64,000 nt of DNA, taken from Ceratodon purpureus. Lineage: Eukaryota; Streptophyta; Bryopsida; Pseudoditrichales; Ditrichaceae. A model generated the notes under the pieces. That model saw nothing but the letters and a program-made list of their open reading frames with translations. It did no database searches and had not been told where the DNA came from. Made by a program: the position numbers and the translations under genes. Of the stretch, positions 11,807 through 50,390 are shown piece by piece. The stretch covers positions 2,042,068 through 2,106,067 of the forward strand of contig CM026427.1 of the NCBI GenBank assembly GCA_014871385.1, given 5' to 3'. Every line of letters starts with the position of its first letter. Positions within the stretch are counted from its first letter, which is position 1.

Positions 11807-12520
11807 GTATTACCAAAAAAAGGTCTTTAAAAATTCATAGTAAATTAAATATTGAAGTATACATGACACTTAAAGTTGCATTCCTTAACCCCTAAAGGGC
11901 CCTGAGGCTGGAATATGGCCTCGGCTGGGATTGTAACATGAATTGAGGCACCTTGCAATGCATATTACTTGAAACAACCAAAAAGCAAAAGATGGGCCCA
12001 AAGATGAGGAAAATTGTGAAACCTTCAAAAATAAAATTGGAATCACTATGTGTATTCTATGGAGTCTTTTTTGCCCATTTATACATAATTGTAGCATATA
12101 CAGACGGTCGTAGAGTTGCTCTAAACTACTCCAAAAATTTTGGAAAAAGTATATACCATTTATAGTACTGACATTGTCTTCCACCAAAAAATTCAACATC
12201 ACAACATCATTTTCTAGTCTTCAATGCATAAATACATGTGTAAACCACTACAGCAACTACATATGCATATCCTTTTAGGAGTTGAACCTATTTCCCTTTG
12301 AAGGAAAAATCTCCCTCAACTTATACACCTCCAATCTCAATGACAAATCTCTTAACTGGTCAGTTATAGATGCCTCAACCTTACGTCTGATTTTCTAACA
12401 TGAGAATCTGCTCATTCCAGTACAACACCTCTACTTTTTCCCCTAAACTTTACTTTAATGATTTACTTTTCCCCCAAAGTAAAATAAAATGAGATGAAAA
12501 TACTTAGTCGCAGGCTCCGT
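11807..12520. other. spacer between CACTA element and WNK promoter
   Basis: AT-rich sequence without a supported gene. The overlapping short open frames on both strands around 11885-12200 have no recognisable content. Confidence 0.6.
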
Positions 12521-12524
12521 CGTC

Positions 12525-13098
12525 GCTGGCATTCGCAGGCTGCGAACTGGAAGCGCAAGCAAGTGCCAGGCTGACGAAGAAGAAGAAGAAGGAGCGTTGC
12601 GGACAGATCGCCTCGCACAGACCACAGCACAGCGAGCGAGCGAGCGAGAATTGCAAGTGCGAGGGCCGGACCAAGTCTTACCCTGCTTGTTCTCCCGGTG
12701 TCCGATCGCTAATCAGCCTCCCTTGCGCACTCACTTCACCACTCCGATCCCGATTTCGTCGCCCCCTCCGCGCGCGCTCTTCAGTTTATTCCAGGTGAGC
12801 TTGGGAGCCGTGCCCCTGGGTCTCCATCGCCTGTATTTTGTTGGGTTGTGGTGGATTTTGCTGGGTTTTGCTGGGTTTTGTTGGGTTTTGGTGGGTTTTG
12901 GGTGGGGCTGTGGACATTTGGTGAAGTGCTGGAAGTGGGAATTGTCCTTTTTTTTTTGTGTGTGTGTGTGTTTGAGTGGGGTTTTGGGTTGAGTGTTTTT
13001 AGGGTTAGGTGATCGGGGGGAAGAGAGGAGGAGGTGACAGCGGGAATTGGAATTTGACGCTTTGGTTTGTGGATTGGAGTGGTGCGGAGGAGGGGGAG
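12525..13098 (+). promoter_or_regulatory. WNK promoter and 5' leader with leader intron
   Basis: Composition becomes GC-rich at about 12510. The segment 12525-12915 is shared with the SNARE gene at 36828-37258 (opposite strand). It contains a GAAGAAGAAG run, a (GCGA)n tract at about 12630-12650, the block ACTCCGATCCCGATTTCG and a splice donor in CCAG/GTGAGCTTGGG with the exon edge at 12794. The donor lies 305 bp upstream of the ATG and implies a leader intron. Its acceptor is not certain: TTTTAG at about 13001 and GACAG at about 13039 are candidates. A 12-kb-range transcript model would settle it. Confidence 0.7.
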
Positions 13099-16000
13099 AT
13101 GCCGAACAAGCAGGAGAAGGGCTCCGAGGGTGACCTCGGAGTGGATCCGCCCAGCGATAAGGACGGCGACGACAACGAATTTGTGGAAGTTGATCCCACT
13201 GGGCGCTACGGTCGGGTAGGTTTTTGTGGTTTTTCTTCACACGGGATTTCTGGTGATTTAATGGCTGAACGACGATCGTCGCAATTGTTTGGTGGTGTGC
13301 AACTGCGAATTGGGGCTGTCAGGGGAACTGGGGTTTGTGAATAAGGAAGAGAGAGGGAGAGGGAAAATAAGAATTGGCAATTAGCGGGGTTCATGGAGTT
13401 GCATTGTTAGAGGTAGCGAATTGGTTGTTGTCGTTTGGAAATTGTCTTTTTCAGCTCTTGATTAGTGAATCCCCGGTTTGTATGTTGGAACAGTATGCGG
13501 AAGTGTTGGGCAAAGGGGCCTTCAAGACAGTGTAAGTCCAGGCTTACGATTTTGAGCACCATTTGTTGTCAATTTGGAAATTAGGGACTGTATTTGTTGC
13601 TGTTTGCATGTTTGGAAGGAAGGGATAGGTCACCAAGTTGTTTTCTTCTAAGCCTTGGTTTAAGCGTTTTTTTTTTTTTTTTTTTCAGAGTTAGGTTTGT
13701 AAGTCTGTTGGTCTATGTGTTAGGTTTGATCCAGGGTACGACAGAAGGAGCTAGGTTGTGTGTCACTGCTTGGATGAACAGAGAGCTATGTGTTGATGGT
13801 TTTATTTTGAATTTTGTTTGGATTTTTGTTTTGGTGTGTGGATCGTACAGTTACAGGGCATTCGATGAGGTTGAGGGTATTGAGGTAGCCTGGAACCAGG
13901 TGAAAGTACAAGACGTGCTGCAGAGTCCCGAGGACTTGGAGCGGCTGTACTCGGAGGTGCACCTGTTGAAGACGCTGAAGCATAAGAATATAATCAAGTT
14001 CTATAATTCATGGGTTGACACGAAGACGATCACTTTCATCACAGAGATTTTCACTTCAGGCACTTTGAGGCAGTACGTGCTCCGATCCAGTCATTTGTTG
14101 TCATGATTGTTCAACGGGCATGGACGAATTTGATTATAGTAGTTGTTTAACAAGGATTCTTGGGTGCAGACCGTAGAGATGTTGCGTTCATCTCTATGGT
14201 GCAAATACTGAACCTTTGCTGTGGGTGGCAGGTACCGCAAGAAGCACAAACATGTGGACATCAAGGCGGTGAAGAACTGGTCGAGGCAGATATTGCGGGG
14301 TCTTCTGTATCTTCATAGCCACGATCCTCCGATTATACATCGAGATTTGAAATGTGACAACGTATTTGTGAACGGCAATCAAGGGGAGGTGAAGATTGGG
14401 GATCTGGGCCTTGCAGCCATCCTTCGTCAGGCACATGCTGCCCACAGTGTTATCGGTGAGTGTGTTGCTGTAATGATACTTCATAATGTGTGTTTGATTG
14501 TGCCGTGCATGGTGATTTGATCGATTATGAAGTGTAAGACACACAACGCGTTTATAAAAGAGAGACCATCATAGAAGTGTACATATGTTGATGTTTACTG
14601 GCTGGCATGTTGCCTTGGTGCTGCTGTTAGGATCAATACAGAACTTCGTGCAGTTGATTCCTATTAATGTACTCGTTTTGTAGGAACACCTGAGTTTATG
14701 GCTCCCGAACTTTATGAAGAGGAATATAACGAGCTGGTCGATATATACTCGTTTGGGATGTGCTTGCTGGAGATGGTGACTTTCGAGTACCCGTATAGTG
14801 AATGTACAAATGCCGCTCAAATTTACAAGAAAGTCTCATCAGTAAGGCCTTCTCTACCTTTTTCTTTAGTTGCATTAAGTCTAATTAGAGGAGTTCACGC
14901 GTTTCGCATGACTGTTTGTACGAGTTTTTGCACGTCTGTTTGTACGAGTTTTTGCACATCTGTTTGTACGAGTTTTTGCACGTCTGATTTTACGACTTTT
15001 ACGACTTTTTGCACGTCTGGTTTTATTAGTTTTTGCACGTCTAAGCGCACACATTTTTACACGTTGTGCATGCTTCTCAAGTCTGATAGTGACATTGTAC
15101 ATCGTATATTTGCAGGGCAAGAAACCTGCAGCGCTCGAGAAAGTGAAGGATCCTGAAGTCCGGGCTTTTGTGGAGAAATGCCTAGCAACTGCATCGAGGA
15201 GGCTTCCTGCACGAGAGCTTCTGATGGATCCGTTTCTGCAGTGCGACGGAGATCGTGAAGCTATAGAGTCTCTTCCTACCATTACCTTGTCAAAAACTCG
15301 GGCGGATGATTTTGAGGAGCTTGGGGTGATTTGCGAGGATCGCACACCAAGCCTCAAAGCTGGAGAGTTTTATAACAGCCTGAAGGTCGATAATGACCGG
15401 AATCACAGGAATGAGAGAAAAGGTCGTGAAGATGAGAGATCACAAAGTGGTTCGAGAAGGATGCCAGCATTGTCTTCTGGAAGGCGTTCTGATGATGAAG
15501 ACGATCCTTCTGGAAGCACTCGGTACTCTAAAGACCGCGTTCGGAGGAGCAGCCGTGACTTTCGAGTGAAGGGGAAAAGGAAAGACGACGATACCATATT
15601 CCTGAGGCTGCGAATTGCTGATCACGATGGTGAGTGCTTGAAGATATGGTCGTTGGTGTATACAAAATAAGTCATATCATGATGACTGGTGTCGTGAGAT
15701 GATGATTGCATTCTTACGTTTATTTTGAAATGGTGAAACTGTCTTTACACCTCAAAATGTCACTTTTAGCTTATACTTTTTTTCTGGTTTATGCAGGTCA
15801 TAGCCGAAACATTCACTTTCCTTTCGATATAGAAGGTGACACTGCAATGTGCGTCGCTAGTGAGATGGTGGCCGAACTGGACCTGTCAGACCAAGATGTA
15901 ACGACCATTGCTGAGATGATCGACGCAGAGATATTGGCTCTAGTTCCGGAATGGCGACCTGGGGTTGCCGTTGATGACGGAGGGCTTGATCCAGACACTG

Positions 16001-17256
16001 CATACACAACAGCCGCTGATGAGTCAGAGATGGTGGGTTCAGATGATTCTGGGATTGATGAACCGCCTTCTTCTAGTTGGAAAGCTCGCTCCATTTCTCC
16101 CAGGTATGTGATATGACGCGAATACTGTTATGGTGAATTACATCTGATGGAATGGGAATTGTCGCTGCTTCGGATGACTTGCTTATTTGTACGCGACCTT
16201 TTTATTTATCCGTTGTATGATTGTCTGTGTTGATGTCCAAGCATCTGAAGTATATTTTTCAGAGGGCCAATTCTTAGTATTTTATACTTTTTGGTGCTTT
16301 GCTTACGTTATATGTTCCTGCTGTCTTGTGGCAGGATGAATCATGTTGCTGCTGCTTCCCCTCCAAGGATGGTGGAGGGCACAATGCACGGGCGGTTCGA
16401 AGAAGTAACATACCCTGCCCGAGCCAGCAATTCTCGACGTGGTTCAGAGCCCATCTTCACGAGTGAGTCGTCAGATGAGCGAGATGACACAGAAGATCAC
16501 GGGTCGAAATATGAAGGGTCACCAGAGGGAGGGTCCCCTACATCGAGCTCGAAACATGGAGGGCGGAGTCATTGGAGCGGGGGTTTCAATGAGTTAGTAG
16601 AGATTAGGAGGAATGCTGGAACTTCTGCTTATTCTCATGAGCCGTGGGAGGTTCTTCATCAAGAACAAGAGGGGCTTGATAGTAGTATTCAAGACGAACT
16701 GCCTCTTTCAGGGGTCGACGATGACGATGAAGTGATTTCTCGTGAGCTGGAGTATCTGGCGCAGAAACAAGAGCAGGAACTGCGAGAGATGCACAGACGG
16801 CATGAACAGGCCATCCTGAGACTTCAAAATAGACGAAAAGGGAAAGGTGCTTCCTATGGATCAGCTGAACTTGGGCAGCCGATTTCACCAGGGTCTCAGC
16901 AGACTGATTCCTCACAGGAATTATTTCATCAGGCACTGACAAGGAACCCTTCGATGGGTCGGTCAGGTTCAAATCTGCTTTCGAGGAGTGACTCCCAGAA
17001 GAAGGTCGGTGTAGATAGTCGCAATGGGAAGTTGCAGATGGAGGAGGCTGACGAGAATAACAACATGGAGGCGAGGTTCGTGGGTGCACCGAAAGCATAT
17101 GGGTTAGGGCACAACTTAAAAGGTCATGTAGTTTTAGAACCATCTTCTGCGAATAAGGGTTCATACCAGTCTGATGCTGAAGGGAACAGTCATGACATTC
17201 CTTACAGCTTGATTAAGTCTGGTTCTACAAATGGTGAGGGCAGCAGCGGGCGGTAA
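13099..17256 (+). CDS. WNK: WNK (with-no-lysine) serine/threonine kinase, 833 aa
   Basis: Eight coding exons join in frame: 13099-13215, 13494-13531, 13851-14072, 14232-14455, 14684-14841, 15116-15629, 15797-16103 and 16335-17256. The kinase domain occupies about residues 38-290. It has the WNK hallmark: the catalytic lysine sits in the glycine-rich loop (GKGAFKTV, Lys50), while the usual beta-3 lysine is replaced in VAWNQV. Catalytic loop HRDLKCDN, the GDLGLA magnesium motif and activation segment GTPEFMAPE are intact, and [11 protein letters not shown] is the plant WNK signature at the end of the kinase domain. An OSR1-C-like (PF2) domain runs through [14 protein letters not shown] and on to WRPGV (about residues 400-480). 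An acidic DDSGIDEP motif and a glutamate-rich coiled coil ([19 protein letters not shown]) follow. Plant WNKs act in osmotic, clock and flowering signalling. The start is the first ATG giving the acidic WNK N-terminus ([13 protein letters not shown]). Very high certainty for the family. Confidence 0.95.
14911..15043. repeat. 24-bp minisatellite in WNK intron 5
   Basis: The unit TGTTTGTACGAGTTTTTGCA plus CGTC repeats about three times almost perfectly. Degenerate copies (ACGACTTTT, GGTTTTATTAGTTTTTGC) extend it to 15043. It lies wholly between the exon edges 14841 and 15116. Because 24 is a multiple of three, the repeat does not interrupt the upstream reading frame. Confidence 0.85.
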
Positions 17257-17304
17257 GGTCATAAGTTTTGAGCGTGGTGATTGCTCCTGTAGTAATGCTA
17301 TGAA

Positions 17305-17640
17305 GCTACTTGAAAGGCATAGTCAATCGGATAGTGTTGTAACAGTATGTAATTCGTGGATGGGCAAAGGTCGGCGATCAGAGTTGGTATCTGATATGCA
17401 ATGACTGTTGAAGATTATTAGAAGCTCTCTGTAGATGCTGGTCTTAATGGGTACTGTATAAGCATGCTGCTGACCTAGTGGCTTCCTCGATGTTTATTTA
17501 GTGTTTAAAATTTGTCACGGAAAGCCTTTTGGTTTGGTTGTAATCCATTTATCATGGCCTACTTTGATGGATTCTCGAGTGGTAGTCCTTGTATTCTTCT
17601 TGAAAAGTATTTGTGTTTAGGATGTGTAATTGGTCTCGTT
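17305..17640 (+). repeat. left arm of an inverted repeat: WNK 3' flank
   Basis: This segment starts about 50 bp after the WNK stop codon and is probably mostly 3' untranslated region. Its reverse complement occurs at 19666-20010. Shared blocks include GCATGCTGCTGACCTAGTGG (about 17464), the stretch around AATTCGTGGATGGGCAAAGG (about 17352), and TACTTTGATGGATTCTC near 17560. Similarity is roughly nine bases in ten over the first 270 bp and falls off, with gaps, toward 17640. Confidence 0.9.
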
Positions 17641-19665
17641 ATCAACCGAGTGAAGGTCTTCCGTGAATGGGGGACTCTCTGGGTTTGGTGGGCTGAAGGC
17701 GGGTTCTCCACGGTCGTTGCCCGGCGGAAAGACCTCGCACCAATTTTTCTTTATCACCACTATTTTTTTCAAGCTGGAGGAGAGTGATTTGTTTGCTTAA
17801 CTCGTAATTTTCTTGGTGTTTTTTAAGCTTAAACTGCCAAAAATAAACCCTTATTGGTAGCAACAAATTGATTTCCGAAATGAAACATCACATAGAATTC
17901 GTAATCGTAGGATCCCACAAGGTGTCCTATACCAAATTGGAGCACAATTCATTGTACAAATTGAGATATTATACGGTTTAAAGTAATTGTAAACTTTGTT
18001 TTTGACTTTCCCGTTTTCTAGATCTAGGAGTGGGCTTCGCACCGTAGACTCTAGGAAAAAGTAATTTTGGAAACCTCATTTATCTTATGTGATTTCAAAA
18101 ATCATCTCCAAAGTCGTAGTGGGATAAAATGAGGTGCAACACGTACACATTTTGGGTCAAAAGAGCGGTGCGGATAGCAAGTTTCGATCTTGTAAAATGA
18201 GGCTAGTTTCTGCCTATACGAGATTGCGGTGGGAGGGTTTTCACATGTATCTTGATGAAGAGAATCTAGATATAGATACGGGATAGCCGCGGTGATGATG
18301 CTCTAAATATTCATGCTCAAAAAGAGTATACTCTACAAACACATTTACTTTAAAGAGGGTCATTAGTTCTTGCAAGTATGGAAGTTGGGTTTACGCTCAT
18401 CAAATTTGAACTCATACATGCTTAGAAAGGGCAAAAAAATCCTTGTTTTAGTCATTAGGGGTGTGATGAAAATGCCTTATATTCTTTGAATTTAAAATGA
18501 CAAAAGGATACTCTGAGCAAGTCCATTGGAAAATCCGAAAAGTAAATATATTCTAGTCGGTGAGAAAAAGAACCTCAAACAATTTCAATGAAATAAAAGT
18601 AAAATTTGAATTTCTATTAATTAATGAAGTACAAATAATATAATTTCATGTGGAACAGCTTTAGTATAGGTCATGTGGATGGACCAACTGCCACATTACA
18701 AAAATATGATGATATATTAGCGCCGCATGAAAATTAAAGGCTAGATGTAGAATTCTTTATAGATGAATGAAAAAATTGTGGAAATGAAAATAGCCCCTCT
18801 AGATGGAAACTGTTAGTTGGATGAAAAATATTTGTATGTTAAAAACTATCAACAATGTAAATGGATGAAAAAACCTTGGGCCTATTATGTTATAAGTGCC
18901 TGCTCTTTGAAATTTTATTTATGACTTTCAGCCCACGTAAATGACGTGCAACTTGGGCAAAAAATGGGAGATTGTGATTGATTACTAGGTGCTCAGATTT
19001 AGGGTAAATTCTTCTAAAATCCATATCACTTGCATAGTAACTTCAAATGTTTTTGAAAGTTGTGTCAATGGAAAATTCCTAATGAAAGCTATGTGTAGTA
19101 AAAATATTAGAAAATTCTGAAGATTTAGGAGCTCAAGATAGCCTGCCGAGAAGTGGTGCAACTACAATTTGGTCTCAAAAAGCTTTAGCAATTAATAGTG
19201 GTAATCCACAAAAATCCACAAAAATCCACATCATCTACTATATCCAATTGAAAGTCAAATCTTTTTAAGCCTTAAGCACTTGATTCATATATCAATAATT
19301 TATCAATTCTTTGGATGACACATGATATTTAGACCTACTTATCATTCAAATAGGAGAAAGTAAAACAAGGTCTCATCCAATTTTTTCCTTCTATAACTCT
19401 CTCCTCTTTCATCCCCTCTTCACTACCTACATTCCTTCCTCACCTTTTTTCTATCTAAAGCTAAAGCTAGGTTTTGAAATATCCCTCATTACCTTTTCAT
19501 CTTCTAAATATTAATGCCTCATAATTACTTTAAATCTTATAAATATTAGTGCCCCATAATTACTTTGATGGTACAAGCCGCAATCCTACACAAAGCTTGT
19601 TGATTGACCTTCCTAGAAAAAAAAATTTTGAGATAATTTTTTTTTCTAAGCTGAATAAAAGATGA
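17641..19665. other. spacer between the arms of the inverted repeat
   Basis: About 2 kb of AT-rich DNA with no gene-like open frame on either strand. A three-copy run of AAAATCCACA is at about 19208-19230. Nothing else recognisable. Confidence 0.6.
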
Positions 19666-20010
19666 TGAGACCAATTACACATTCTAATGCAAAACCACAT
19701 GGGTTCATCCATACAAAAATATCAACACAAATACAAAGACTAACACTAGAGAATCCATCAAAGTAGGCCATTTACACCCAAACCAAAAGACCTTCCCTAA
19801 TAAATTTTATAACACTAGATAAACCTCGAGGAAGCCACTAGGTCAGCAGCATGCTTATACGGTACTCATTTAGGCCAGCATCTACAAAGAGCTTCTACTA
19901 ATCTTCAACAGTCATTGCATATCAAATACCAACTCTGATCGCCGACCTTTGCCCATTCACGAATTACATACTGTTACAACACTATCCAATTGACTATGCC
20001 TTTCCAGTAC
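19666..20010 (-). repeat. right arm of the inverted repeat, downstream of DEG7
   Basis: Reverse-complement copy of the WNK 3' flank (17305-17640). Read on the minus strand it lies about 930 bp downstream of the DEG7 stop codon, in the same orientation relative to DEG7 as the original has to WNK. The copy has small indels and substitutions, so it is diverged and not an assembly artefact. Confidence 0.9.
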
Positions 20011-20338
20011 TATTCAGAATCAGAATCAGACTGAAATTCAGAGTTTTCTCCACCTTGGGTGTGTACAGGAGCACGGGGTGATCGATCATAATCTTTTGCA
20101 GTAATCCACGATGTTCCTTGCAACTCTTACGTTAGGAAATCCTCCGTATGACGAAGGCAGGTGGACTTGCGAGTTCAAAAAGACAACATGCTACAATGTT
20201 GAAGGGTCATCTCTTCTGTGACCCATCGCAATTCTCTCAATAACTCAATTCTGGAGAGCAATGTCGATACCAGGAATGCCCCGGTCCTCGTTGAATCTCT
20301 CCAATGAATCACTCTATGGTCGCTAAAACCACCACCGT

Positions 20339-20600
20339 CAGCATTTATAACAGATATCATAGATGACACTGGAGCTGGATCCTGATAACCTCAACGACTC
20401 CACTCTAGAGTCTTCGCTTGTTGCAGTGCTTGACACATAATGCACAGGTCCGAGCACAGGTCCCATGAAACAGTTTTCGGTCAATGACATAATTGCCCAC
20501 AATGGTATCTGTGACGGATCAGAGAGAATTACATAAGTCCATGGAATATCCACAACTAAGAATAATCTATCTTCTTCTATCCATAATAGAAAACGTAATA
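20339..20600 (-). other. coding-like fragment downstream of DEG7
   Basis: A minus-strand open stretch reads FLLWIEEDRLFLVVDIPWTY and continues with PLWAIMSLTENCF. The composition looks protein-coding rather than random, but the family is not recognised and no start codon or splice context makes a gene. It could be an exon remnant or part of the DEG7 3' untranslated region. Sequence from 20011 to 20942 contains nothing else that can be named. Confidence 0.2.
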
Positions 20601-20942: not shown

Positions 20943-23900
20943 CTAGTGTGCCTTGATGACGTGACGGCGCCACATTGCCGACGTTGGATCAAGACGAAGC
21001 TCCCACGTTGGCCAGTAGTGGAGATCCTGCTTCACCGTCAACACTCTAGGCTTCCCGTTCAAGTGCACTGTCTTAACACGAACAAATGCGCCATGCTCCA
21101 ATCCTTGGGTCACATCTACAAAGTCTTGAAGATTGGGTGTAGGCTTCCCATTCACCTCCACGATCCATTGGAGGGCATACAGACCATACCTGTGAACAGG
21201 ACTTCCGTGACACCACCGCGCCACGTACACTCCATGACCTTGTTGCGGCAGAAAACCCAACGCTCGCACTGCAGCATGTGGCTCTTGTAATACACATCCC
21301 GCCCAGTTCACCATTCTCGTTGTCCCAAAGCCATCACGGTCATCAATCCCGACCTCAATGTTAATCTCCCGCCCCTGACGAAACAATGTGACGTCCAGAG
21401 TCCCTGGTGTCTGTTCATTCGAATTACCTACATCTGTAGAATTCCTCTTGGTTGCTTCACACGCAATCTCAACGTCCCGGAAGCATGTCACAGGCTGGCC
21501 ACTTATAGCCAACAACATATCGCCTTGATCCAAGACACCATGCGCTCGTGATCCTGCTAAGCACCCTTTAACACGCAAAACTTGCCGTCGAACGGAGTCT
21601 TTCTCAGCTAATGCTTGAACCCACTTGTCGCTGAGGCCAAAACTTCGAGCTTTGGATAACAAGGTTGGGTAAAGTTCAGCCTCCAAGATACGCATCAGAG
21701 GCATTGACCTTTCATGACCGTTAATGACCAATGAAGGGCCACCAGACAAGCCATTCACAATGACGTCCAGAACTTCAGAGATTGCATGAATTGGAATCCC
21801 GCGCACAAACTGGTGATCTTCAGGTGAGCTGTCCCCATATTTTACTTGAGTTGAGAAGCTACCCCAGAGGGCTTGCACTTTCCCATCCTCATCAGCTAAA
21901 ACCCCTGAAAATGTGTGACCGAAGTCAGTATCTAGCTCAATGACTTCCATGTTCATAGCACGGTACCTAGGGCAATCTGCTGCCGCCACGTTTAGAGCCG
22001 CTCCAGGGTTAGTTACTGTCGACTTCCGTGACGTTGCTTGTAAGCTTCGTGACAGGCCAACGAGGTAAACAAAATCACCTCTGCGCAGTGGAGGATCCGG
22101 TAACAGAACAGCTGCCTGCACAGCAGCCATGCCCACTTCACCCAGAGCGGTTGGATTGTACGCCACCAACGCGTAGTTGTGAACAGGATGTAAGAAGACT
22201 ACTTCACCAGGAATTTCCATGGGGAACGCAGCGAAATTCAACATCACATCGGAGACCGAAATAGCAACCGTATTCTTATCAACTGCCACTAAACCAAGGT
22301 CTTTTGAATGATGCACGATCACTCCTGTGCCAAAAAAATGTTGTGCATGGACACCATCCAGCATCGCTGAAGGTGGAATATGCACTTCCATCATGACCAG
22401 AGTCGGTTCAATTACATGCTCGGCCACTGATGAGCTAGTTCCAGGAGCAATACCACTTCCTTGCCTAGAGGTACTGTCCAATGTACCCTTAATAGTAGGA
22501 GCAGGAAGATCAATACTATCAGGGAGAACTTTGTCAACTTTCTGACGCTTCGTAGCAGCTTCTACTTGAAGTTCATCATTAACGACAGTTTTACTATCAT
22601 CTCCTTCTTTGATAGCTCCGTTAACCCCATCAACCACAGGGCCTTCAACAGGTTCTGCTTCCATGGGATCGACTTTCAGAGCTATCAACGGAACTTCTGC
22701 ACTGGGGGCTGCCTGTCGGATATCCCACAACCCGGTGGCGTCATTCCGGGTATAAATCCGCGGGGGTGCGTACCATTCATGGCGGTCGATTGTGACCAGT
22801 ACTGACTTGCTCCTGTGCCTGTCAATATGGCTAACAAACTCAAGCGGAACACGAGCCCCTCGTGAAAGCTTAAAGAAAACTGAGATGAATTTGTCAAGAT
22901 TGACAATATCCTCTCCTGCCATCTTCTTAATTATGGCATGTTTCGGTACTCCTGCTCGAGACAGCATATACCCAGGTTCAGCTACATATACAATACCGCA
23001 AACAAAGTGCAAGTTGCGAGCTTGTTGATAGGAAAGGGCATGAATCACTCCACCGCTCACTTCCAGAAACATGTTGGGAGTGATGGAGTGCAAGTCCTGA
23101 ACCGGAATCGTCACGTTGATCGTTGTCCCTCCTCGTTCAAGCTCCAGGCTGACAGGATTCCCCACGTTATCATCCAGTAAAGTTTCATACTTCAAAAATT
23201 GGGTTAACACTTCGCCAGCAGCACGTATAAGTACATCCCCTGGCTCGAGCTGCTTGTGTGCAGGACCTCCTGGAACCACAGATTCCACAACAAGCATTCC
23301 TGTTTCAGAAGCTGGGCAGGCCTTCCGAACCATCTGCTCTGTATCCCTCTTCACGCCAAGTCGGCGAGTCTCATCAAACCCTTTGTGGGAGAACGTCACC
23401 TGAAATGTCCCCCGTGGAATCACTGCCGGTTCCCACCCCTTCAAACATTTATCTTTCTGTTCTTGCAGCATGTGTAGAGCCCGCACCACGCGTTCCAGAG
23501 GAAGGAAGAAAGCAGACGCACTCGCTGATTTGCTCCCTGCATTAAGTGCGACAGCGCGACCATGAATATCAATAACAGGGGAACCACTGGAACCACCCTT
23601 TGTTCCTGATGCAGCCTGCATGTAGAATGTGTTAAAATCATTGTATCCATCCTTCTTGTAATGTGGAGCATCGCGGTCAAGCCTTGCAAGTGTGCCGGCG
23701 AGGATCGACACCTTCTCTCCACTGTCATTACCAACAACACGAATCTCAAGTCCCACCGCTGCTGCATCTGGTGCAAGGGGAATCTCCTCATACTCGAGAA
23801 ACTGAACTGTATCTGGATCGAACCAAAGGAAGCCAAAGTCGTGAACTGGGTCCCGGTAAAGAGGATAGACTGAAATTTCTTCTCTATTCACGAACATAGC

Positions 23901-24191
23901 TTCAGCCACAATAGGTCCTGGCTTCACAACGTGCCGATTCGTGAGAAGAATCCCCCGTTTCTTGTCAACTACAAAGCCAGTGGCGTAGCTGGCACCAGCC
24001 ACTTCGGTATCAAACGCGCGCGTGGCGGTAGTACGGAGTACTACAACTGCAGGGACCACTCTATTAAGCGCCTTGCGCCAATCTTCTGCACTGCCTGCAC
24101 TGTCGAAGACTGGCGGTTCAAGCTCCATCGTGAGGCCTAACGACTTGAGAGCCTCCACGCTCTCCGACTTCATTGGTTGCAATCTATTCAT
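20943..24191 (-). CDS. DEG7: DEG7-type serine protease (HtrA family), 1082 aa, intronless coding region
   Basis: One uninterrupted frame encodes the whole protein, close to the length of Arabidopsis DEG7 (about 1,100 aa). The N-terminal protease domain carries the triad His87 (LLTNRHVVKPG), Asp118 (DPVHDFGFLW) and Ser202 (KGGSSGSPVID). A PDZ domain follows (about residues 290-380, GPAHKQLEPGDVLIRAAGE). A second trypsin-like unit (about 600-820) has lost the catalytic serine motif: GVLADEDGKV stands where an active enzyme has GNSGGP. Further PDZ units end the protein. This duplicated active/degenerate architecture is characteristic of DEG7, reported to assist photosystem II repair in plastids. 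The N-terminus (MNRLQPMKSESVEALKSLG) lacks an obvious transit peptide, as in other DEG7 proteins. From memory, flowering-plant DEG7 genes have many introns, so the intronless coding region is notable. Short open frames on the opposite strand are shadows. Confidence 0.95.
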   Translation of the reverse strand: MNRLQPMKSESVEALKSLGLTMELEPPVFDSAGSAEDWRKALNRVVPAVVVLRTTATRAFDTEVAGASYATGFVVDKKRGILLTNRHVVKPGPIVAEAMFVNREEISVYPLYRDPVHDFGFLWFDPDTVQFLEYEEIPLAPDAAAVGLEIRVVGNDSGEKVSILAGTLARLDRDAPHYKKDGYNDFNTFYMQAASGTKGGSSGSPVIDIHGRAVALNAGSKSASASAFFLPLERVVRALHMLQEQKDKCLKGWEPAVIPRGTFQVTFSHKGFDETRRLGVKRDTEQMVRKACPASETGMLVVESVVPGGPAHKQLEPGDVLIRAAGEVLTQFLKYETLLDDNVGNPVSLELERGGTTINVTIPVQDLHSITPNMFLEVSGGVIHALSYQQARNLHFVCGIVYVAEPGYMLSRAGVPKHAIIKKMAGEDIVNLDKFISVFFKLSRGARVPLEFVSHIDRHRSKSVLVTIDRHEWYAPPRIYTRNDATGLWDIRQAAPSAEVPLIALKVDPMEAEPVEGPVVDGVNGAIKEGDDSKTVVNDELQVEAATKRQKVDKVLPDSIDLPAPTIKGTLDSTSRQGSGIAPGTSSSVAEHVIEPTLVMMEVHIPPSAMLDGVHAQHFFGTGVIVHHSKDLGLVAVDKNTVAISVSDVMLNFAAFPMEIPGEVVFLHPVHNYALVAYNPTALGEVGMAAVQAAVLLPDPPLRRGDFVYLVGLSRSLQATSRKSTVTNPGAALNVAAADCPRYRAMNMEVIELDTDFGHTFSGVLADEDGKVQALWGSFSTQVKYGDSSPEDHQFVRGIPIHAISEVLDVIVNGLSGGPSLVINGHERSMPLMRILEAELYPTLLSKARSFGLSDKWVQALAEKDSVRRQVLRVKGCLAGSRAHGVLDQGDMLLAISGQPVTCFRDVEIACEATKRNSTDVGNSNEQTPGTLDVTLFRQGREINIEVGIDDRDGFGTTRMVNWAGCVLQEPHAAVRALGFLPQQGHGVYVARWCHGSPVHRYGLYALQWIVEVNGKPTPNLQDFVDVTQGLEHGAFVRVKTVHLNGKPRVLTVKQDLHYWPTWELRLDPTSAMWRRHVIKAH

Positions 24192-27626: not shown

Positions 27627-29592
27627 CTACAAGATGAAAGGCTGCTTGCCGACCATGGCGAGTTCGTAACTCTTGATGGTGGGGGCGAGGGTGGCCATGG
27701 AGAAATCCAGGGTGCAGTTCCTCACGTTGAGGGAGTTGGGCTCACCGTTGGGGCTAAGCGGAAATTCTCTGCAGAGCTCCGTGCGGCCGTTGGCGGTGTT
27801 GTGGTAGTGGTAGGCGCGGAGGGTGGTGATCTCCATGTCTTCCTGCTTGCCGTCGAGCTTCATGTGCTCGGAGCGGTGGACCCCCGTGGCCCACACGCGC
27901 TGCGGCTGCACTGCGTATTTGCGTGACTCGTCTGGCTTCCACCCGTAGTCGCAGTTGGCGTATACTAGCTTCTCAAACGCCCATTTCCTGCGAGAACCAC
28001 AGCACAACGCACACCAGTTTGATGCTCTCAGCTGATTTGATTCCTCTTGTCACGCATAACAGGGGATGCATGTTCTTGACGTGCGTGACGTGCGTGACCA
28101 TGACCTCATTTCTTGCGAACCAAGCCTCACCTACCGAAGCTACACGATCTTATCACGTCTTTGCAACGACTGAAATCAACAACACCTTTGCAAGCACGCT
28201 AATGAACTTCTTCTGCATGTGATAGATTCGCGGACGAATTACCTGGAGATTTTGGGCTCATCCAACACTCGTCTGGTCGATTTCCAACACAGCCCGTCGG
28301 AGACTTTGACGTTCTGGAAGAGGATTTGGGTCACGTTGTTGCGCGCTTTCTCAGCCAGAATGGACCCGATTGTAGGTTGATACGGTTCACCGCTGGGAGG
28401 GATGTAAAGAAACTCATCGACGTCGAAGAAGAACGTCCAATTGGCAAGAGTTTGCGACATGAGCATGCAATCGTTCAGCATCGTGAACTACAGCACAGAC
28501 ATAGTACACACGTCGTTTAGCATGCTTGTCATCATCTCTGCGAGACCATGCTATCACCAACTGAAAAGAACAATATGCAGCTAGAATTGTGCAGAATTCA
28601 GTTCGATTAGGTTCTAAATTTTGAGTGAACATTGTGATGAACACCTTCTTGCGAAATCTGTCAATGGCAAATTAGGAAAACATGGCAAGCACCTAACGCA
28701 AAGCTCTACGCCATACCTGGTGATGGTAGTACCCATCATAAACCTCCGCTTGCCGCAGGTTCTGAACTCTCACTCTCCCGATGTCAATCCACGGCTTGAG
28801 CACACGATAAACCTCCTCATGTATCCCGCCCGCGTCCTGAAAGATGAAGAGCGTCTTCTCTCCGAAGAACCACGCGTGGTAGGCAATCCACTCGCGGACG
28901 CGCTGCGGGCTGATGTTGCCATAGAGCGGGGAGCCACAGAACGTGATCTCGTAAGGGTAAGGCGGCGCGTATCGGCTCGCATTGTACTCTCCTCGCATCT
29001 CCGTGAGCGCCACAAACCTCTCCGGCGAGCGGAACACCGGCTCTGCGTACCCAGCCGTCAACACCAAACGCCCGCCCTCCGCATCTGTGCCAACGTCGCG
29101 AGGAAACTCGCAGACGAGCACCATGGTGCCATACAGCCGGCCCATGTTCCAGTCGGGCTTGATGGGGCGCGCCTTCACCTTGAGAGGAGGATCATCTGAG
29201 CTCACCCACTCGCATTCGTAGAGAATCTCGTGCAAGTTGTTCAAGTGCTTGCTGGTCATCACCACGGAGGAGAATGTGCGCGGGCCATTGCGGTACGAGC
29301 CCACCTCCACGATCAACCTCGATGCGATGCCGTGAGGGTGGAAGAAGCGCACGTCTCCGCGCGAGAGGTCGATGGAGGACATGTTGAGGGGCTCGTCCAT
29401 CGTTGTTGTGGTCGCGTTCACGCACCCCATGAGCTGCGGTCTGGGTGGCCACCATCCTCGTTCGTAGATGGATGGCGCATTGGAGGAGATTTGGAAGACC
29501 AGGAACAGGCAGTTGATTACGATGAGGACAAGCGCGGTGTTCATGCTAAGGACTCCGGCATATGTGTCCAGGATCCTCTTCGACGCCTTCAT
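27627..29592 (-). CDS. GT92 (DUF23) glycosyltransferase, galactan synthase (GALS)-like, 493 aa
   Basis: Exons 29592-28717, 28487-28243 and 27987-27627 join in frame. Residues 14-36 (GVLSMNTALVLIVINCLFLV) form one membrane anchor near a short basic cytoplasmic tail, a type II Golgi layout. The GT92 domain covers about residues 190-450: YPYEITFCGSPLYG, the block RVREWIAYHAWFFGEKTLFI, YDGYYHHQ joined to FTMLNDC, and the divalent-cation DxD motif in FFFDVDEFLYIPP (Asp314 to Asp316). The tail has RKWAFEKLVY, KYAVQP and GVHRSE as in plant GALS proteins, which add beta-1,4-galactose to pectic rhamnogalacturonan I side chains. Length agrees with Arabidopsis GALS1 (about 490 aa). Family certain; galactan as product is inferred from the family. 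Confidence 0.93.
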
Positions 29593-34619: not shown

Positions 34620-36401
34620 TTATCTTCGGAGCAACCTTTGTCCTCTGACATTGGCTCTCTTAACTCTGCCGTTGAGCTCCTGAATATCGTCATGAAGATG
34701 CTCGATAGCAGGGGATTGCCTGTAGTCAAGGGAGAAAAAGAGTTAAAAAAAAGTTAACAACAAAAAGTTATGCAATAAGTTCAAACAGCTCAAAAAAAAG
34801 CCTAGTCATTAAAATACTGCAAGGCCTTAAATGCAGATGCAAGGTCAGAAAAGTACCTGTCAATTTCTGTATTCATGTCCATTGACATTTCCTTCATTTG
34901 AGATAAAACAGTACTCAAATCGTCAAGCATGTCATCCTGGGTTTCCCGTTCAGCCTGTCGCCGAAGAATACAAAGTATCAGAAGCCGATCTAAGCACGAT
35001 AGCACTAAATAGTAACATTACATAACCAAGAGGAAAAAGTGAAAACGTGCACGATAAAGAAGCAGCATCCAAAAAATACACACGTCATAACTTGTTAAAG
35101 CAAGGTAAGCATTCACCCAGGCGAACACGAAAACTTGAATTCCAAATAAAATTAAATGTTATAATACTATAGTGTTGAGACTCTGATCACCTCAATTTGT
35201 CCCTGAAATGTATCTTTGTCGTGGTTAGATCCAGATTGTTTCTTCTTTCCCTGGCTGCCATCCAAGCCCAAGGCTTCACGATCCTCAGCGCTCTCCTTCT
35301 GGTTGTTGTTAACTGCAAAATGATATATTTCTCGGTTTAGAATAATCTTACAAACACAGTCAATGAAGCCCCAGATGATACAAAATTTAGGCATCCAGCT
35401 CAAGATTGGGGAACATAAACCAAATGCTCGCAACACTCGTGCATATGTAGTCTGCGGAACAACCATTGTGTATCGCCTCTAGTACAATTCAGAATTACGA
35501 TTATGGCTACAAAACATTTCAATAATTACCTCGGCCAACCATCGGTCCAGTGATCTTCTTCGTCTTCTTGGGCTTCCATGACTTGGAGAACATTCCTCCA
35601 AGACTTCCCAGAAGCTTCTCACCCTGCTCACATCAAGAATCAACCACTGTGACTCAGATGTAATTCCCCATAGATCGCTCATAATAACAAAAGAATAGAG
35701 CAGAGATATATTAAACTCTATTGAATGCAGGAACGAATTTGCGTTTTTAAGTCATTACACCTAACATGGTTGCTAGGTCATCCAGAGATTGCAATAACCT
35801 AAAATATCACTCAACAGAATAACCTGTAAAAATTTCTAGACAGTGTTTTGTGGTTTATCAGTGCAGTTTGAAGGCTGTGCTGTCACTCAGGTGGATTTCA
35901 ACAGCTATCACGACAGAAATAATAGAGGTAAACCTCACGAACTAGTTCGTGATTTCTATGTAGAGATGCGAAGCAAGCTACAAGAGTGAAATTCAAGTGG
36001 CTGCAAACTCTTACCCTGCTCAGGTGCTGGTCGAGATCAACAGCCCTCTCGTGGGTGCGCTCGATCTGCACGCCCTGTTCATGCAGGCTAATCAGAGTCT
36101 GGGCTCCGACGCCCATGGTATCCTCTGCAACTCGAAGACAATTCTTCAGAGTCGATGTAGTCTCCTGTGACTTGGACACAGCATGCTTCTCAAGGTCCAT
36201 CACCGCCTGGTTGACGAACTCCTCATCATGCTCGCCGCCATTGCCGTATCCCTGTTTAGGCTTGGAAGAACTGTAGCTGAATAGCTCATCATCATCCTGA
36301 GAGGTTGTTTTTACAACCTTCTTCCCACCGCTTCCAGCGCGAGGCGGCTTGGAGAAAGCCTCCTCGTCATCGAAAGGGTTCTTTGGAACTCGCCTTGCCA
36401 T
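34620..36401 (-). CDS. SNAP33: SNAP33-like Qb+Qc SNARE, 266 aa
   Basis: Coding exons 36401-36015, 35623-35530, 35312-35191, 34954-34857 and 34719-34620 join in frame. The N-terminal NPFDDE and asparagine-proline-phenylalanine context is typical of plant SNAP25-type proteins. The Qb helix runs over about residues 60-129 (LEKHAVSKSQETTSTLKNCL, then EQGVQIERTHERAVDLDQHL). The linker has the plant signature GEKLLGSLGGMFSKSWKPKK and ITGPMVG. The Qc helix starts at AERETQDDMLDDLSTVLSQM and ends RVKRANVRGQRLLRR at the stop. Plant SNAP33 works with syntaxins such as KNOLLE and SYP121 and with VAMP721/722 in cytokinesis and secretion at the plasma membrane, attached peripherally. The protein is shorter than Arabidopsis SNAP33 (300 aa), mostly in the N-terminus and linker. 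The start is the first ATG downstream of a leader-intron acceptor. Confidence 0.93.
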
Positions 36402-37258
36402 GATTTACACCCCGAAAATTTGCACAATCCAATACAAAAGATCGAGTGCGGGTCGGATCTTCAACAACGCAGCGGATTATATCCACGCGAATACCTTCCC
36501 TCAAAAATTCGCAAAATGTACAGAAAAATCTGCAAACAAGTAGAAAACAGTGAGAACAAACGCACCGGCACTCCCACTAACCGACCACAAAACAACCACT
36601 TCCATAAAACCTAGCTAACATAACCCCCAACATACACCCAGCGACGATCTCACAGTCCAACTGCCTCAAAATCAAAGAAACCACAAAACTCACAAAAAGA
36701 CCCACCTCCGAACTCACCGACCTCTCACTCACACCTCAGATTCACATCAAAGCACTCAACCCAAAACCCCACTCGACACAAAAAAAAGCCCAAATCTCAC
36801 TTCAAGAACTTCCTAATGTCCAGAGCCCCACCAAAAACCCAACAAAATCAAACAAACCCCATCAAAACCCAGCAAAACCCAACGAAGTCCAGGCGATAGA
36901 AACCCAGGGACGAGGCTCCCAAGCTCACCTGGAAAAAACTGAAGAGCGCGCGCGGAGAGGGCGACGAAATCGGGATCGGAGTTGAGAAGTGAGTGCGCAA
37001 GGACAGTAATAAGAGACGCTGGGATCGGACACTGCAAGGGAAGAAGTCCGGGAGTCAAAAGCGCGGGGCGCGGGGGCTAGATGCAAGGTGAGGTCTGGTC
37101 TGGTCTGGCCCACGCGCTTGCGATTCTCGCTCGCTCGCTCGCTCCCTGTGTGCAAGCGGATCCGCAACGCTTCTTCTTCGTCCGCGGTCTCCCCTCCCCG
37201 ACTGTCCCGTCCCAGGATCGTTCTGCTGCGCTTCAGCTTCGCAGCCTGGGAATGCGAG
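36402..37258 (-). promoter_or_regulatory. SNARE gene promoter and 5' leader, with leader intron 36928-36530
   Basis: On the minus strand the donor CCAG/GTGAGCTTGGG ends the first leader exon at 36929, and the acceptor TTTGCAG/ATTTTTC starts the second leader exon at 36529. The segment 37258-36828 is a copy of the WNK promoter/leader (12525-12915). Both contain the CATTC...CAGGCTGCGAA block, the GAAGAAGAAG...CGTTGCGGA block, a four-unit GCGA tract, CTCCGATCCCGATTTCG and the same splice donor with identical following bases. Confidence 0.75.
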
Positions 37259-38690
37259 CGGGCGACGAAGAAGCCGGGTCGCTGCCTGGAGTCCCCCTCA
37301 TGCGCTGCACAGTGGTCGCCGCGATGGCGTTGCCGATCGCATCGCCATCGCCTCCACCCGCAACGGCAACCCAACGCAACGAAGCAGCACACAAACGCGT
37401 CACTTGAGCAATATCTACCTGATTCCTAGACTTCATCTCTCCAAATCAACGTGTTTGTAATTGGTATCATGTCCAAGTGAGGTGACGGTCTTATGTGTGC
37501 ATACGGTAGTATGTAAACGCGTCATAATCACTTGTTTTTCTTAGATTCTTTTTTTTGAGATGAACTCCACTGGTACATGGGTTGTGGGTTAGGGGTTCGG
37601 TGACGGTTTTTGGTTTAGGGTTCGAGGAGCGCAGGCTTTGAAGGCGAATGATTGTCTGCTGCCGTTGGGGCCAGAACTCCAGGTATTTGTAGATTTTGCT
37701 TTGCAGATGATTTCCTGGGGTACATGTTGCGGGGTTGGGTAGTGAGCGCGTTGATGGCGAATGTCTGCTGCCGTTGGAGATGAAGAGTGGGGTGGATGAA
37801 TGGTTTGATTGGATTTGATTTTTCCTTGCCACGTTGGATGGCAAGTTGGAGCTTATTTATAGGAAAAGGGCCATGTTCCTTCAGAGTCCACTGCGCAGGG
37901 TTTCTGTGGATACGTTTTTCTATTTTATTTTTTATTTTTTTTAGATTTAGTTTTGGGCAAACCTACTATAATACTATGATACCATTATTCTCGGGGATAT
38001 GAAGTGAGTGATGAAAACAAAGTTAAAATATAACTATCTCGTCGGAAGAATTTGTTGGAATCTAGGTGAGATACCACATGTAAGAATGTAGAAAGTTTCT
38101 CTAAAGAATGATATGTATCAAAGATTATTTGCAATTTATTTTAAAATGCTGACAAGATCAATGTTGTGATTAAGTATCAGGTTTTTTTTCTTTAACATTT
38201 AACATTGGTGCCTGGAGAAGGCCTAGTGTACACAATATTGTGCTTGTGATTAGCAATACACCACATTCTGCAATACCAATCATTAATTTAGATTAATAGA
38301 TTACTTATGGTAAATGATCTTTATTGTAGACGTATTTATTACAATAAACAAATATCGAATGATGCATGGATACATAAAAAAAAAAAACGTTTGAAAATCA
38401 TCATTTATATTGTTTAAAATCTATTTAGAGTAAAATGATTTTTTATTCTTATTATACATTTTCAAATTGAAACATAATTTGAATCTCAAAAATATGATAT
38501 AAAATGTCACGATTTATATTCACAATTACAGGAGAAATAGTTTATTTCAGTTTATTTTGGAAATTATTCTTTGTAATTTTATAATTAAATGGATATATAA
38601 AAAAACTGTTTAACAACCTTTGAGCTATCAATCAGCAAAAAAAATAACTTCATATATTTGATTCAAAAATACATGAGAAATAATTAAATA
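37259..38690. other. spacer with a diverged 130-bp duplication
   Basis: Sequence at 37545-37665 and 37685-37790 shares GGCGAATG...TCTGCTGCCGTTGG and a preceding GGTACATG...GTTG block, so it is an old tandem duplication of roughly 120-130 bp. GGTTTAGGG-like words occur at about 37610. The rest is AT-rich with no gene. Confidence 0.5.
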
Positions 38691-46431: not shown

Positions 46432-47995
46432 CCAAAACCCAGAGAACTGTCAATCAAAGGAAGGTATACCGTGACCCAACTTTGTCATAAGTTAATGAAT
46501 AGGGTAAAAGCTTCTGATCATATTACACCAACCAGAAGGTCTATGCACGACCTTGGAGACTCTAGACCGTTTTCATTTCAATGTCCTCTAGAGTAATTTA
46601 TATCCTCCTCCGAACTGCTCCTTCCGACGTAGATTGCTATCCTAGGGTTGTTCTGATTGCAGCCTCTTGTATCCAAAAAAATACCACTTTCATTTGCTTT
46701 CCAAGCGCAATCAATACACATCATGGGATCATCAAGGTCATCAGGAGGTATCCATAGAAAGACATCCTTGCGGAACTTGGAGGGGTTTGCACACTAGGGT
46801 ACACCTTTTTTTTTGTAGCAAGACGTCAACTAGTGTACTATCAACAATTTCAAAATTCAATAAAAAATTATTAAAAGTATTTTGAGATTCTATTTTTTTG
46901 CATGAATGATGAACACTCTAGTTACTATTTTATCATATTGGTAATTTTTAAAAAATAGCATGTGGCGAAATAGAAATACATCAAAATAAGCAAAAGTTGG
47001 TGTCCGTAGCAGGGGGGTAGCTTGTACGTGAGCGGAGAGCGGAGAGCGGTGAGCGGAGATTTGGAGAGCGGAGAGCACAGAATGGGGGACATAACCTAAA
47101 AATAGCAATTTTTTTACTAAAAATATTATATAAAATTAGAAGATTTGACTATTCTCAGTATATTTTTAGAAATAATCTTATTTTAGTAATTTTATTGACC
47201 CTATAACCGTGGACTAATTACAGTATTTTCATTGAATTTGTAGTTTGTTTTCTCATTTCTTGGTGATTAATTTTTTGACGTGCACCAATTTTTTGACTAT
47301 GCTCCAGCTCCTTCTAACTGGTTCAGGCATACATTAATTCCCCTTATCCCCTTACATTTATATGCAAATTACTACTTAAAATGTATTGGTATTGAAGCTC
47401 TTAAGAGGGATCAAGTAACATTTAATATCGTAACATTTTCTTAACATTGCTATAATTCATCCACCATAGTCTACATGCCTTTCTCCTTCTTTTATTTTTA
47501 TTTTTATAATTGTCTTATATTTTTTATTAACTTTCTTTATTCTATCTATCTTGTTAGAGGGGTCAAAAGCGTCCTTTCATTTAATTTTCTCTTTCATTTT
47601 ATTTTCACATTCATTTTATTTTCACATTCAATTTCTTAATCTCCTTCATCTAATTTTCCACCTTCATATTAAATATTGCTTTTGTTTACTTTAATCTTTT
47701 TAATTTCATTTTTTATATATATATATATATTTTTTTTTAAAAAAAATTTATAATTTTTTTTATAATTTCATTTTTTATTTTTTTTTTAAATTTTAAATGC
47801 TAAATGACCTCTGCTAAACCCTCATCTTTTTCCATTGAGTTTAGGAGGATGGCAACTTTTAAATGAATGAAAAGCCGATATTCAAGGGCGCCAAGCATCT
47901 TCTTCAGGGATATTTAAGATAGGATTATGGAATGTCTCTTCCTCTTTTCTGTTGGTGTTTTGTGAAGCTCTTTTCCGTAGTGCGGGACAGCAGTT
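46432..47995. other. AT-rich spacer with a GAGCGGA repeat tract
   Basis: Nothing gene-like. At 47030-47078 the words GAGCGGA and GAGAGCG alternate six or seven times (for example GAGCGGAGAGCGGAGAGCG). A (TA)n tract is at 47718-47731. Probable promoter or leader of the following small gene lies in 47900-47995. Confidence 0.6.
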
Positions 47996-48448
47996 ATGGA
48001 GGACGTCAGAGATATTGTTGTTTCACTTGCTGACGATGTTTGTCCATTTCAACCATATGTTGAGGTGGAGGACGAAGAAGAGGTGATGGCCAACAGCCAA
48101 GGGCGTCCTTTGACAACGGATGTTGACGTACAACCGGATGTAAGAGCTGATCCTCTACGTTCAGAAAAATCGGATGATATCATAGTGCTGGAGGAGGATG
48201 CAGATGTGCCTTTGCAACCACATGCATACTCGAAGGTTGGAAAGATCCCAAGGGGAACCTATTCCAGGGAATCAGTGAATCGGAGGCGGGGAGGTGGGCC
48301 ATTGCTGAAACGTTCATACCAAGGACACTTGCCAAGTGTGGGAACGAAAGTGAATGCGAATGAAGTTTGTCCTGTAGTACAGTCAGCGGCTGGCAGTCCT
48401 GCTGATAGTGTAGTGGGCAACCCGAAACGTGTTAGGTTCGAAGATTAA
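47996..48448 (+). CDS. small acidic protein of unknown function, 150 aa
   Basis: A single ATG-initiated frame with strongly coding-like composition in AT-rich surroundings, ending in TAA. The first half is acidic (DEEEVMA, DVDVQPDVRADP). At about residues 60-69, DDIIVLEEDAD matches a SUMO-interaction motif: a hydrophobic core of four flanked by acids. The middle is basic (SRESVNRRRGGG). The C-terminus ends PKRVRFED, which fits the RVxF consensus for docking to protein phosphatase 1. No domain or family is recognised, and no membrane segment or signal peptide is seen. It may be a complete intronless gene or the last exon of a longer one. Functional motifs are short and could be chance. Confidence 0.5.
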   Translation: MEDVRDIVVSLADDVCPFQPYVEVEDEEEVMANSQGRPLTTDVDVQPDVRADPLRSEKSDDIIVLEEDADVPLQPHAYSKVGKIPRGTYSRESVNRRRGGGPLLKRSYQGHLPSVGTKVNANEVCPVVQSAAGSPADSVVGNPKRVRFED

Positions 48449-50390
48449 GACATCTAATAACAAGTATATGTTTGCTGTAATAAAAGGTACATGTCAGGGG
48501 ATACGAAGTATATAGTGCACTTGTTCAAGATAGAGTGTTTTGAAATAGAGTGCAATCAATGTGAACGACAAAGCCTTTATAATGAAAAAGTCAATATAGC
48601 TTCTGTATTGCGGACTTAGTACATGGTATATTACTAAAATCATTCACTACTTGACAAATGGCCATTGTGGAAATGGCAGTTCTAAAGTAGGAGGCCTACC
48701 TACTTCTTCGCCAAGGGGTGACGCAAGATTCCACTCTCTAAGAGTAGCTTGACCTCGTTGAAGCTGAAGGTAGGCGCATGGATGAAAAGCTCCGCTTTGG
48801 GATCACGGTTGCAGACCTTCAAGAGTATGTAGTATTGGTGCTTACAATACGTGAACTGAGTCCTGCCTCAAAACATAGTCATCGTCTTCTTGAATGCTGG
48901 GCAACTGCAACCAGGGTAAGAACTGATGGTAATCTGGTACCGTGTGATGTGTGGAGCGACGCCCGAATCTCAGTGAACATACTTTGATCTAGGTAATAGC
49001 TCTGTCAAACAGATGATGCTGTTTAGAGGAAAACACTAATAACTAAGTTATGATATTATCATTACTTAGGTTGTATAGCAAAGCTTTCTAATTTGTTATC
49101 CACTGATCAAGTTATCATTATCAGTTTCCATCATACACATTCAGCTTGTGATTTTTACCAATTAATAGTCTATTAGTCACTGATTATGTACAAAGCATTA
49201 ACAGTTCCTCACAGCTGCTTAGCCTTTGTGACTAACACTTCATCCATAAATTTGAGATACATGTCTCAAATACAAAGTAAAAAGTAATCTTGCATAATTT
49301 TCATGCAACACTTGAATAACAACTTATCCTTAGCTTGTCCTCCAGATCTTAAGCACCACCGTTTATTTTAGCTCCTGAATCAAAAGCTCCTTGTCTTCAT
49401 CACCACCATGTTGTAATAATCAAAAACTTGCACATGAGCAGGAACCTCACGTGTCCCCGTCCCAAAAACACCACAAAATTACAACTTTGAGGGTTAGTGA
49501 GGTAGACAAGGTGTTTTAAACCCTCAAACATAATTTTAAAATATTTTACATATATTTTCTTGTACTTCACATACATACTTACAAAACATACTATAAGAAT
49601 CCCATGGTCCAAGAAAGAGTTCTTGATTCATCAAGAGATTAAATGGATAAATTTAGAGAACATACAAACATGGTGTAAAGGGTATAGATTTTAGATAAAT
49701 CTAAAATAAAATAAAATTTGAATCCATTTAAAGAATAATACGGTTTAAATAAATCTAGAGAAGTAGATTCTTTAGGAGAAAAAGTAAGTAACTTAAAAAT
49801 AAATTACCGAAGGAAAATGTTTATGTTTTATAAAAAAAGGATCAACAATATTTAATTTTTTAAAAACTCAAATAATCAATTGCCCGATGATAAGCTACCA
49901 ACACATGGTCAATCAACTAGAAATAGGACATTTTAACCTTTTCCTATAATATAATATGATAATTTTTGCTTCATAACTATTAACACTATATGCTTCATAA
50001 CCATTGAACACTTTCTTCTTCAAACATGTTAACCCCTAATTGCCTTAACAACTATTCAGTATTTTCATGTCGCCATCTGAAACCAATAAAAAATTTACAA
50101 AAAGTAAAAGAAAAATCTAGGCTAAAAAAATTTCCATGTTATGTGTGTGACTACCATGGTATCTCCTTGTGGTATCATTTTTGATTATATATACATGGGT
50201 GATTAAGGGTTAACATGTATGAAGAAATAGTTGTTAGTTGTAGGAATTGTCAAGAGTCCAGAAATAAGAAATCACCTATTTTGGACATGATAAATACGGA
50301 GCATTGACGTAAAATTGTGCGGAAAGATCCACGACGGGCTACTGTACTAGTATCTTTACATAGCAAGGACATTCAGTAAGAGCATTGTAT
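48449..50390. other. AT-rich spacer
   Basis: Short open frames (for example 48778-48987 on the plus strand) have no recognisable content. No RNA gene seen. Confidence 0.6.

Follow-up and report, generated by a model that had tools for sequence, protein, structure and literature searches.

Promoter-side leader DNA of a WNK kinase gene recurs in inverted orientation ahead of an unrelated SNARE gene in the moss Ceratodon purpureus

Recruitment of a promoter from an unrelated gene is already known. In primates, the promoter of NBPF1 was recruited from the unrelated gene EVI5 (PMC6920530, PMC3429928), and the promoters of LRRC37 were acquired from BPTF and DND1 (PMC6920530). In Drosophila, inverted duplications at the breakpoints of inversions were attributed to staggered breaks, which were inferred by using an outgroup chromosome (PMC3355041). 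As far as the available passages of these papers describe them, all three systems resemble the locus from the moss Ceratodon purpureus that we report here. As with NBPF1 and EVI5, an unrelated gene would carry a promoter derived from another gene; as with LRRC37, promoter elements would come from an unrelated gene and would have been gained during duplication; and as at the Drosophila breakpoints, a segment has inverted duplicates of single-copy DNA at its two ends. Unlike NBPF1, which belongs to a many-copy primate family with reported expression, the moss case has two copies, which are inverted and 24 kb apart. LRRC37 also differs in consisting of multi-copy core duplicons, and the available passages about it mention no nested inverted arms. 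Unlike the Drosophila breakpoints, the moss locus has two nested pairs. It would thus be a two-copy, inverted, and short-range case of promoter recruitment, joined in the noncoding leader and with a partner in a 3'UTR. Searching one literature collection for the gene pair or for wording that describes the phenomenon, we found nothing on this locus.

The window that we analyzed is a stretch of 64,000 nucleotides (C7:2042068-2106067). A preliminary description of it had claimed that ~390 bp before a WNK-type kinase gene recur, on the opposite strand, before a SNARE gene. Local alignment confirmed the recurrence: 384 of 444 aligned columns are identical (60 substitutions, with another 127–128 gap columns in 19–20 gaps), and the score was 399, as compared to a mean of 26 and a maximum of 42 for 200 dinucleotide shuffles. 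The homology is longer than had been described. It extends from 12513 to 13000 on the forward strand (segment X), and its inverted copy (X') occupies 36749-37276 on the reverse strand, so that 12513-13000 aligns to 37276-36749. X includes promoter-side DNA, a leader exon, the donor site of that exon, and ~200 bp past the donor. Each of the six quoted sequence blocks occurs at both loci, in matching order and on the claimed strands. The Kimura two-parameter (K2P) distance between X and X' is 0.149, or 0.155 for the part past the donor. Neither the outer nor the inner flanks (2 kb) showed homology above 50 shuffles, so the ends of the shared segment are sharp.

The alignment reflects more than low complexity. 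We chose seven sub-pieces along X and compared each to 200 mononucleotide shuffles of its own; all seven scored higher than any shuffle. The strongest sub-piece is the non-repetitive 12721-12793 (score of 126, with a shuffle maximum of 32). The narrowest margins were those of a GAAGAAG piece (34 vs. 26), the GGGTTTTG tract (79 vs. 54), and the T-rich piece that follows this tract (76 vs. 46). Conservation also varies along the segment, with 159/190 identical columns in the distal part, 71/75 in the proximal part of the leader exon (12721-12794, forward strand; the columns were counted over 12721-12795), and 154/179 past the donor. Identity in the proximal leader is higher than in the distal part (p = 0.016) and nominally higher than past the donor (p = 0.053), which is only a hint of constraint.

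We then searched the genome for further copies of the leader. The assembly has 362,488,568 bases in 151 contigs; C1-C13 are large (C6 has 110.5 Mb and the other twelve have 16.5-29.0 Mb) and C14 has 0.15 Mb. For common words, the counts from these searches are lower bounds. Whether X or X' was the query, DNA searches returned both places (E ~ 1e-70), and each copy was the only full partner of the other. The remaining hits, of which X gave three and X' gave one, were weak and did not extend outside the GGGTTTTG tract. This tract, at 12831-12908 on the forward strand, just after the donor, is the only part of X that resembled other loci in these searches. For two 24-base core patterns, allowing up to three mismatches, we found exactly two genomic places each, and none for the reversed controls. 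A 16-base pattern around the donor, with one mismatch allowed, had 36 matches, of which three were exact, and two of these three are X and X'. We aligned six of the other 34, including the exact match on C5, and in all six cases the similarity was limited to a short match (scores of 33 or less). Many of these other matches are paired ~1.8 kb apart and resemble an unrelated repeat. We rejected the idea that X is a dispersed repeat, as the extra matches of the DNA searches are to the GGGTTTTG tract only and the searches returned two copies instead of many with common ends. As for the tract, it adjoins a donor-like site at one other locus (L003) and lies shortly before an ATG at another (L010); such tracts may be characteristic of leaders or first introns in this moss.

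The coding regions that follow X and X' are unrelated, as had been claimed. The kinase gene has several exons and runs from the start codon to the stop codon at 13099-17256 on the forward strand. Among the 25 solved-structure relatives listed for its kinase part, 15 are WNK1 or WNK3 chains, all with E ≤ 1.7e-74; the next matches were one chain named as EGFR (5.6e-38) and NEK7 chains (from 1.1e-32). WNK kinases are distinguished by the absence of the subdomain II lysine of most kinases, and this protein has VAWNQV in place of VAxK, so it has no lysine there. The other gene encodes a SNARE of the SNAP-25/SNAP33 type (hereafter, SNAP). Its first coding exon (36015-36401, reverse strand) matches the Pfam family V-SNARE_C (E = 3.7e-7), and 16 of the 17 solved-structure relatives listed for it are SNAP-25 (best E = 8.7e-5). 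A second SNARE-like stretch is visible by eye in the translation at 34802-35017, where the raw frame had no Pfam match. So, homologous promoter-side DNA precedes unrelated coding sequences, as in the recruited promoters described above. Two more genes lie in the same block of the reverse strand as SNAP: an open frame for a glycosyltransferase of family 92 (GT92, 28693-29592), and a serine protease with PDZ domains (20943-24191), which we take to be DegP7-like and which had no second match in the genome. The starts of these two genes did not share the leader above 50 shuffles. Also, no Rfam family matched within the window at the gathering score.

The preliminary description had gone further and proposed that the two genes share a promoter and a spliced 5' leader. 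The donor is identical in X and X' (the exon ends at 12794 and at 36929, respectively), and a spliced leader is reasonable for SNAP and no more than possible for WNK; the acceptors of both genes are predictions. We judged acceptors by eye and with a crude count of pyrimidines only. The probable SNAP leader intron is 36530-36928 on the reverse strand (GTGAGC...TTTGCAG). By the pyrimidine count, its acceptor, TTTTCTACTTGTTTGCAG ending at 36530, which is outside the homology, tied with a GAG ending at 36772, which is inside. We prefer 36530 because it is a CAG and because, with 36772, three of the five ATGs of the stretch would precede the start codon, beside one at 36747. For WNK, the GAG ending at 12976, which matches the candidate in the SNAP copy, had the highest count, followed by sites at 13079 and 13002. 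A possible WNK leader intron at 12795-13002 (forward strand) would join the conserved donor to TTTTTAG ending at 13002, or else to the GAG at 12976. The SNAP acceptor probably lies outside the copied segment and so would be resident. That each gene uses its own acceptor is only probable, and it is opposed by the GAG inside the segment, which scores best in WNK and ties in SNAP. The start codon of WNK, at 13099, is the only ATG in 12513-13102. With no ATG in 12513-13098, translation of WNK would not need the leader to be spliced. Simple pattern searches found no TATA box in either copy. We infer that the segment is a working promoter for both genes; if active, the copied part would supply the promoter, the first exon, and the donor.

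The earlier claim of promoter capture by segmental duplication is supported in part by this two-copy, inverted duplication of a gene start, but it missed a second inverted pair at the other end of the WNK gene. Segment Y (17307-17624, forward strand) begins 50 bp past the WNK stop codon, so it should be in the 3'UTR. Its inverted copy, Y' (19706-20009, reverse strand), is 2 kb away, downstream of the DegP7-like gene. Comparing the window to itself with BLAST, Y and Y' were 87% identical; aligned over 17301-17643, they have 299 of 327 columns identical and 28 substitutions. A search of the whole genome with Y found two places only, namely Y and Y'. Just before the stop codon, the C-terminal coding part of WNK matches a paralog on C4. 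To the right of Y', at 20010-20600 on the reverse strand and before the DegP7-like gene is reached, is a stretch that was single-copy in the genome search and whose short open end (...SDSDSE*) stops where Y' begins; this is perhaps the last exon of some gene.

The order along the chromosome is X Y Y' X', with the pairs nested and colinear. In other words, both noncoding ends of WNK recur, flipped, around the reverse-strand block of SNAP, GT92, and the DegP7-like gene. Because of the Y pair, the event resembles a rearrangement of both ends of the WNK unit and not a simple copying of a promoter. Across 164 kb of C7, we found just two other inverted matches of at least 100 bp with E ≤ 1e-8, and both of them join a single pair of regions that are ~105 kb apart. 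The 2-kb spacer between Y and Y' is not palindromic beyond chance (13 of 100 shuffles reached its score).

We consider it likely that a local inverted rearrangement placed the 5' end of one gene ahead of the other, whether by an inverted duplication or by an inversion with duplicated ends. Such an event would have duplicated ~280 bp up to the leader donor and ~200 bp beyond, and would have left one copy at a distance of 24 kb, in front of an unrelated gene. The junction would lie in noncoding DNA past the donor, so the coding sequence would be untouched. The receiving gene could then draw on all three copied elements (promoter, first exon, and donor) and would probably combine them with a resident acceptor downstream.

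As to how much was duplicated, a nested order at both ends of one transcription unit is what would be expected from a tail-to-tail inverted duplication of WNK whose body was later replaced. We tentatively suggest that X/X' and Y/Y' could be the surviving ends of one such duplicate, with the SNAP-GT92-DegP7 block in place of its body; in that case, the promoter that drives SNAP would have come from a WNK duplicate that no longer exists. It is equally conjectural that a dead kinase duplicate left behind a shell of regulatory DNA, with its promoter, leader exon, and donor on one side and its 3'UTR on the other, and that three unrelated genes now lie inside this shell, the first of which is run by the kinase promoter. 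When we searched between Y' and X' for relics of WNK exons, blastn and tblastx gave only scattered short matches, the longest being 36 residues at 39% identity, and these were off the expected order. When WNK was aligned locally to three parts of the block, 10, 8, and 4 of 40 shuffles scored at least as high. Because these coding relics are not above chance, duplication of the whole gene would require that the body was physically replaced by ~16.7 kb of other DNA. The substitution levels of the two pairs (60/444 for X and 28/327 for Y; p = 0.039, Fisher's exact test) are similar and not clearly equal, which weakly favors two events.

The C4 paralog of WNK bears on the age of the duplication. 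Searching with a WNK exon, we found this one close paralog (C4:1408500-1418400; L015 and L051) and two distant matches on C5. The C7 and C4 proteins are 94% identical over four exons (244/260), and their fourfold sites are near saturation (66 of 91 differ). The surroundings of the C4 paralog are AT-rich, and we did not find segment X in its upstream region, so we rejected the idea that the leader was kept from an older duplication of WNK. X and X' are far less diverged (K2P of 0.155 past the donor) than these fourfold sites, which suggests that X was copied well after WNK was duplicated; unless X is strongly constrained, its duplication would be the younger of the two. The first coding exon of SNAP had no second match in the genome. 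We also looked for synteny around the paralog, but an exon of an epimerase gene, which we presume to be GME-like, and the DegP7-like frame each matched only themselves. Comparing ~50 kb of C4 around the paralog to the C7 region yielded the WNK exons, repeat-like pieces (at 41-42 kb and 58 kb of the window, and in L032 and L037), and the stretches L040 and L041.

Evidence as to which gene originally owned the promoter points both ways, and the models of the rearrangement can also differ on this. On the SNAP side, GC-rich DNA runs ~100 bp past the segment, while beyond the edge on the WNK side, 50-bp bins have 24-42% GC. With its longer GC-rich flank and its better acceptor (a CAG), SNAP would be a suitable source. 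The GC-rich flank fits either SNAP as the source or the remnant of a displaced promoter beside SNAP. The asymmetry in GC content and acceptors points one way, and the nested Y pair points the other.

A more specific account, which is possible but which we think is doubtful, is an inversion with staggered breaks around the promoter, so that the promoter was duplicated at both ends of an inverted segment of 24 kb. A second, nested inversion of 2 kb would have done likewise for Y, and each gene at an end would get a copy of the promoter. This is a variant of the local inverted rearrangement that we favor, and the odds of the two overlap. The mark of staggered breaks, in the available passages on Drosophila, is that the two ends of the segment carry single-copy DNA as an inverted duplicate (PMC3355041). 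X and X' have this form, with sharp ends, two copies, and inverted orientation, and Y and Y' are likewise an inverted two-copy pair; in addition, the GC-rich sequence that borders X' on its outer side could be the other gene's former promoter, now displaced. However, we reckon that one inversion, if staggered at both of its breaks, would leave the order X Y' X' Y. The observed order is X Y Y' X', so the account needs two nested events.

It is very unlikely that the segment was captured by a transposable element (of the Helitron or Pack-MULE type) or is itself a low-copy element with its own promoter. There is repeat-like DNA nearby: sequences related to 41-42 kb of the window occur on C4 and in the flank, and ~50 kb to the left of the window there is a Transposase_21 domain (L032). 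However, searches of the 362-Mb genome returned only two copies of the segment, we did not see terminal repeats at its ends (by eye), and both X and X' are directly upstream of coding starts. Other repeats in the region include ~2 kb at 47015-48969 with a direct repeat (90.7% identity) located 33 kb further along, beyond the window, and a tandem array on C7 ~24-29 kb past the end of the window (88159-93044 in window numbering), with a unit of ~200 bp and with copies that are mostly 95-98% alike.

Finally, it is scarcely credible that X and X' reflect a generic architecture of moss promoters, with GCGA, GAAGAAG, and GGGTTTTG tracts, instead of common descent: the GGGTTTTG tract is indeed present at the other loci mentioned above, but the homology is colinear over ~490 bp and includes a 73-bp non-repetitive block, the specific 24-mers match two places only, and the starts of the GT92 and DegP7-like genes did not exceed 50 shuffles, so for the segment as a whole we consider this idea to be refuted by the shuffles and the 24-mer counts.

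If both genes do start within their copies, then this locus would be a compact, natural exchange of a promoter through noncoding leader DNA, in which a copied donor can join a downstream acceptor and neither protein is touched. With the nested 3'UTR pair as a second marker, the gene order of a few outgroups would be enough to trace the rearrangement. Gene replacement is practicable in this moss. Promoter copies that face each other could let the 24-kb interval flip without either gene losing its promoter. The point of most biological interest is that a WNK kinase and a membrane-fusion SNARE may be expressed together; this shared regulation is only a prediction.
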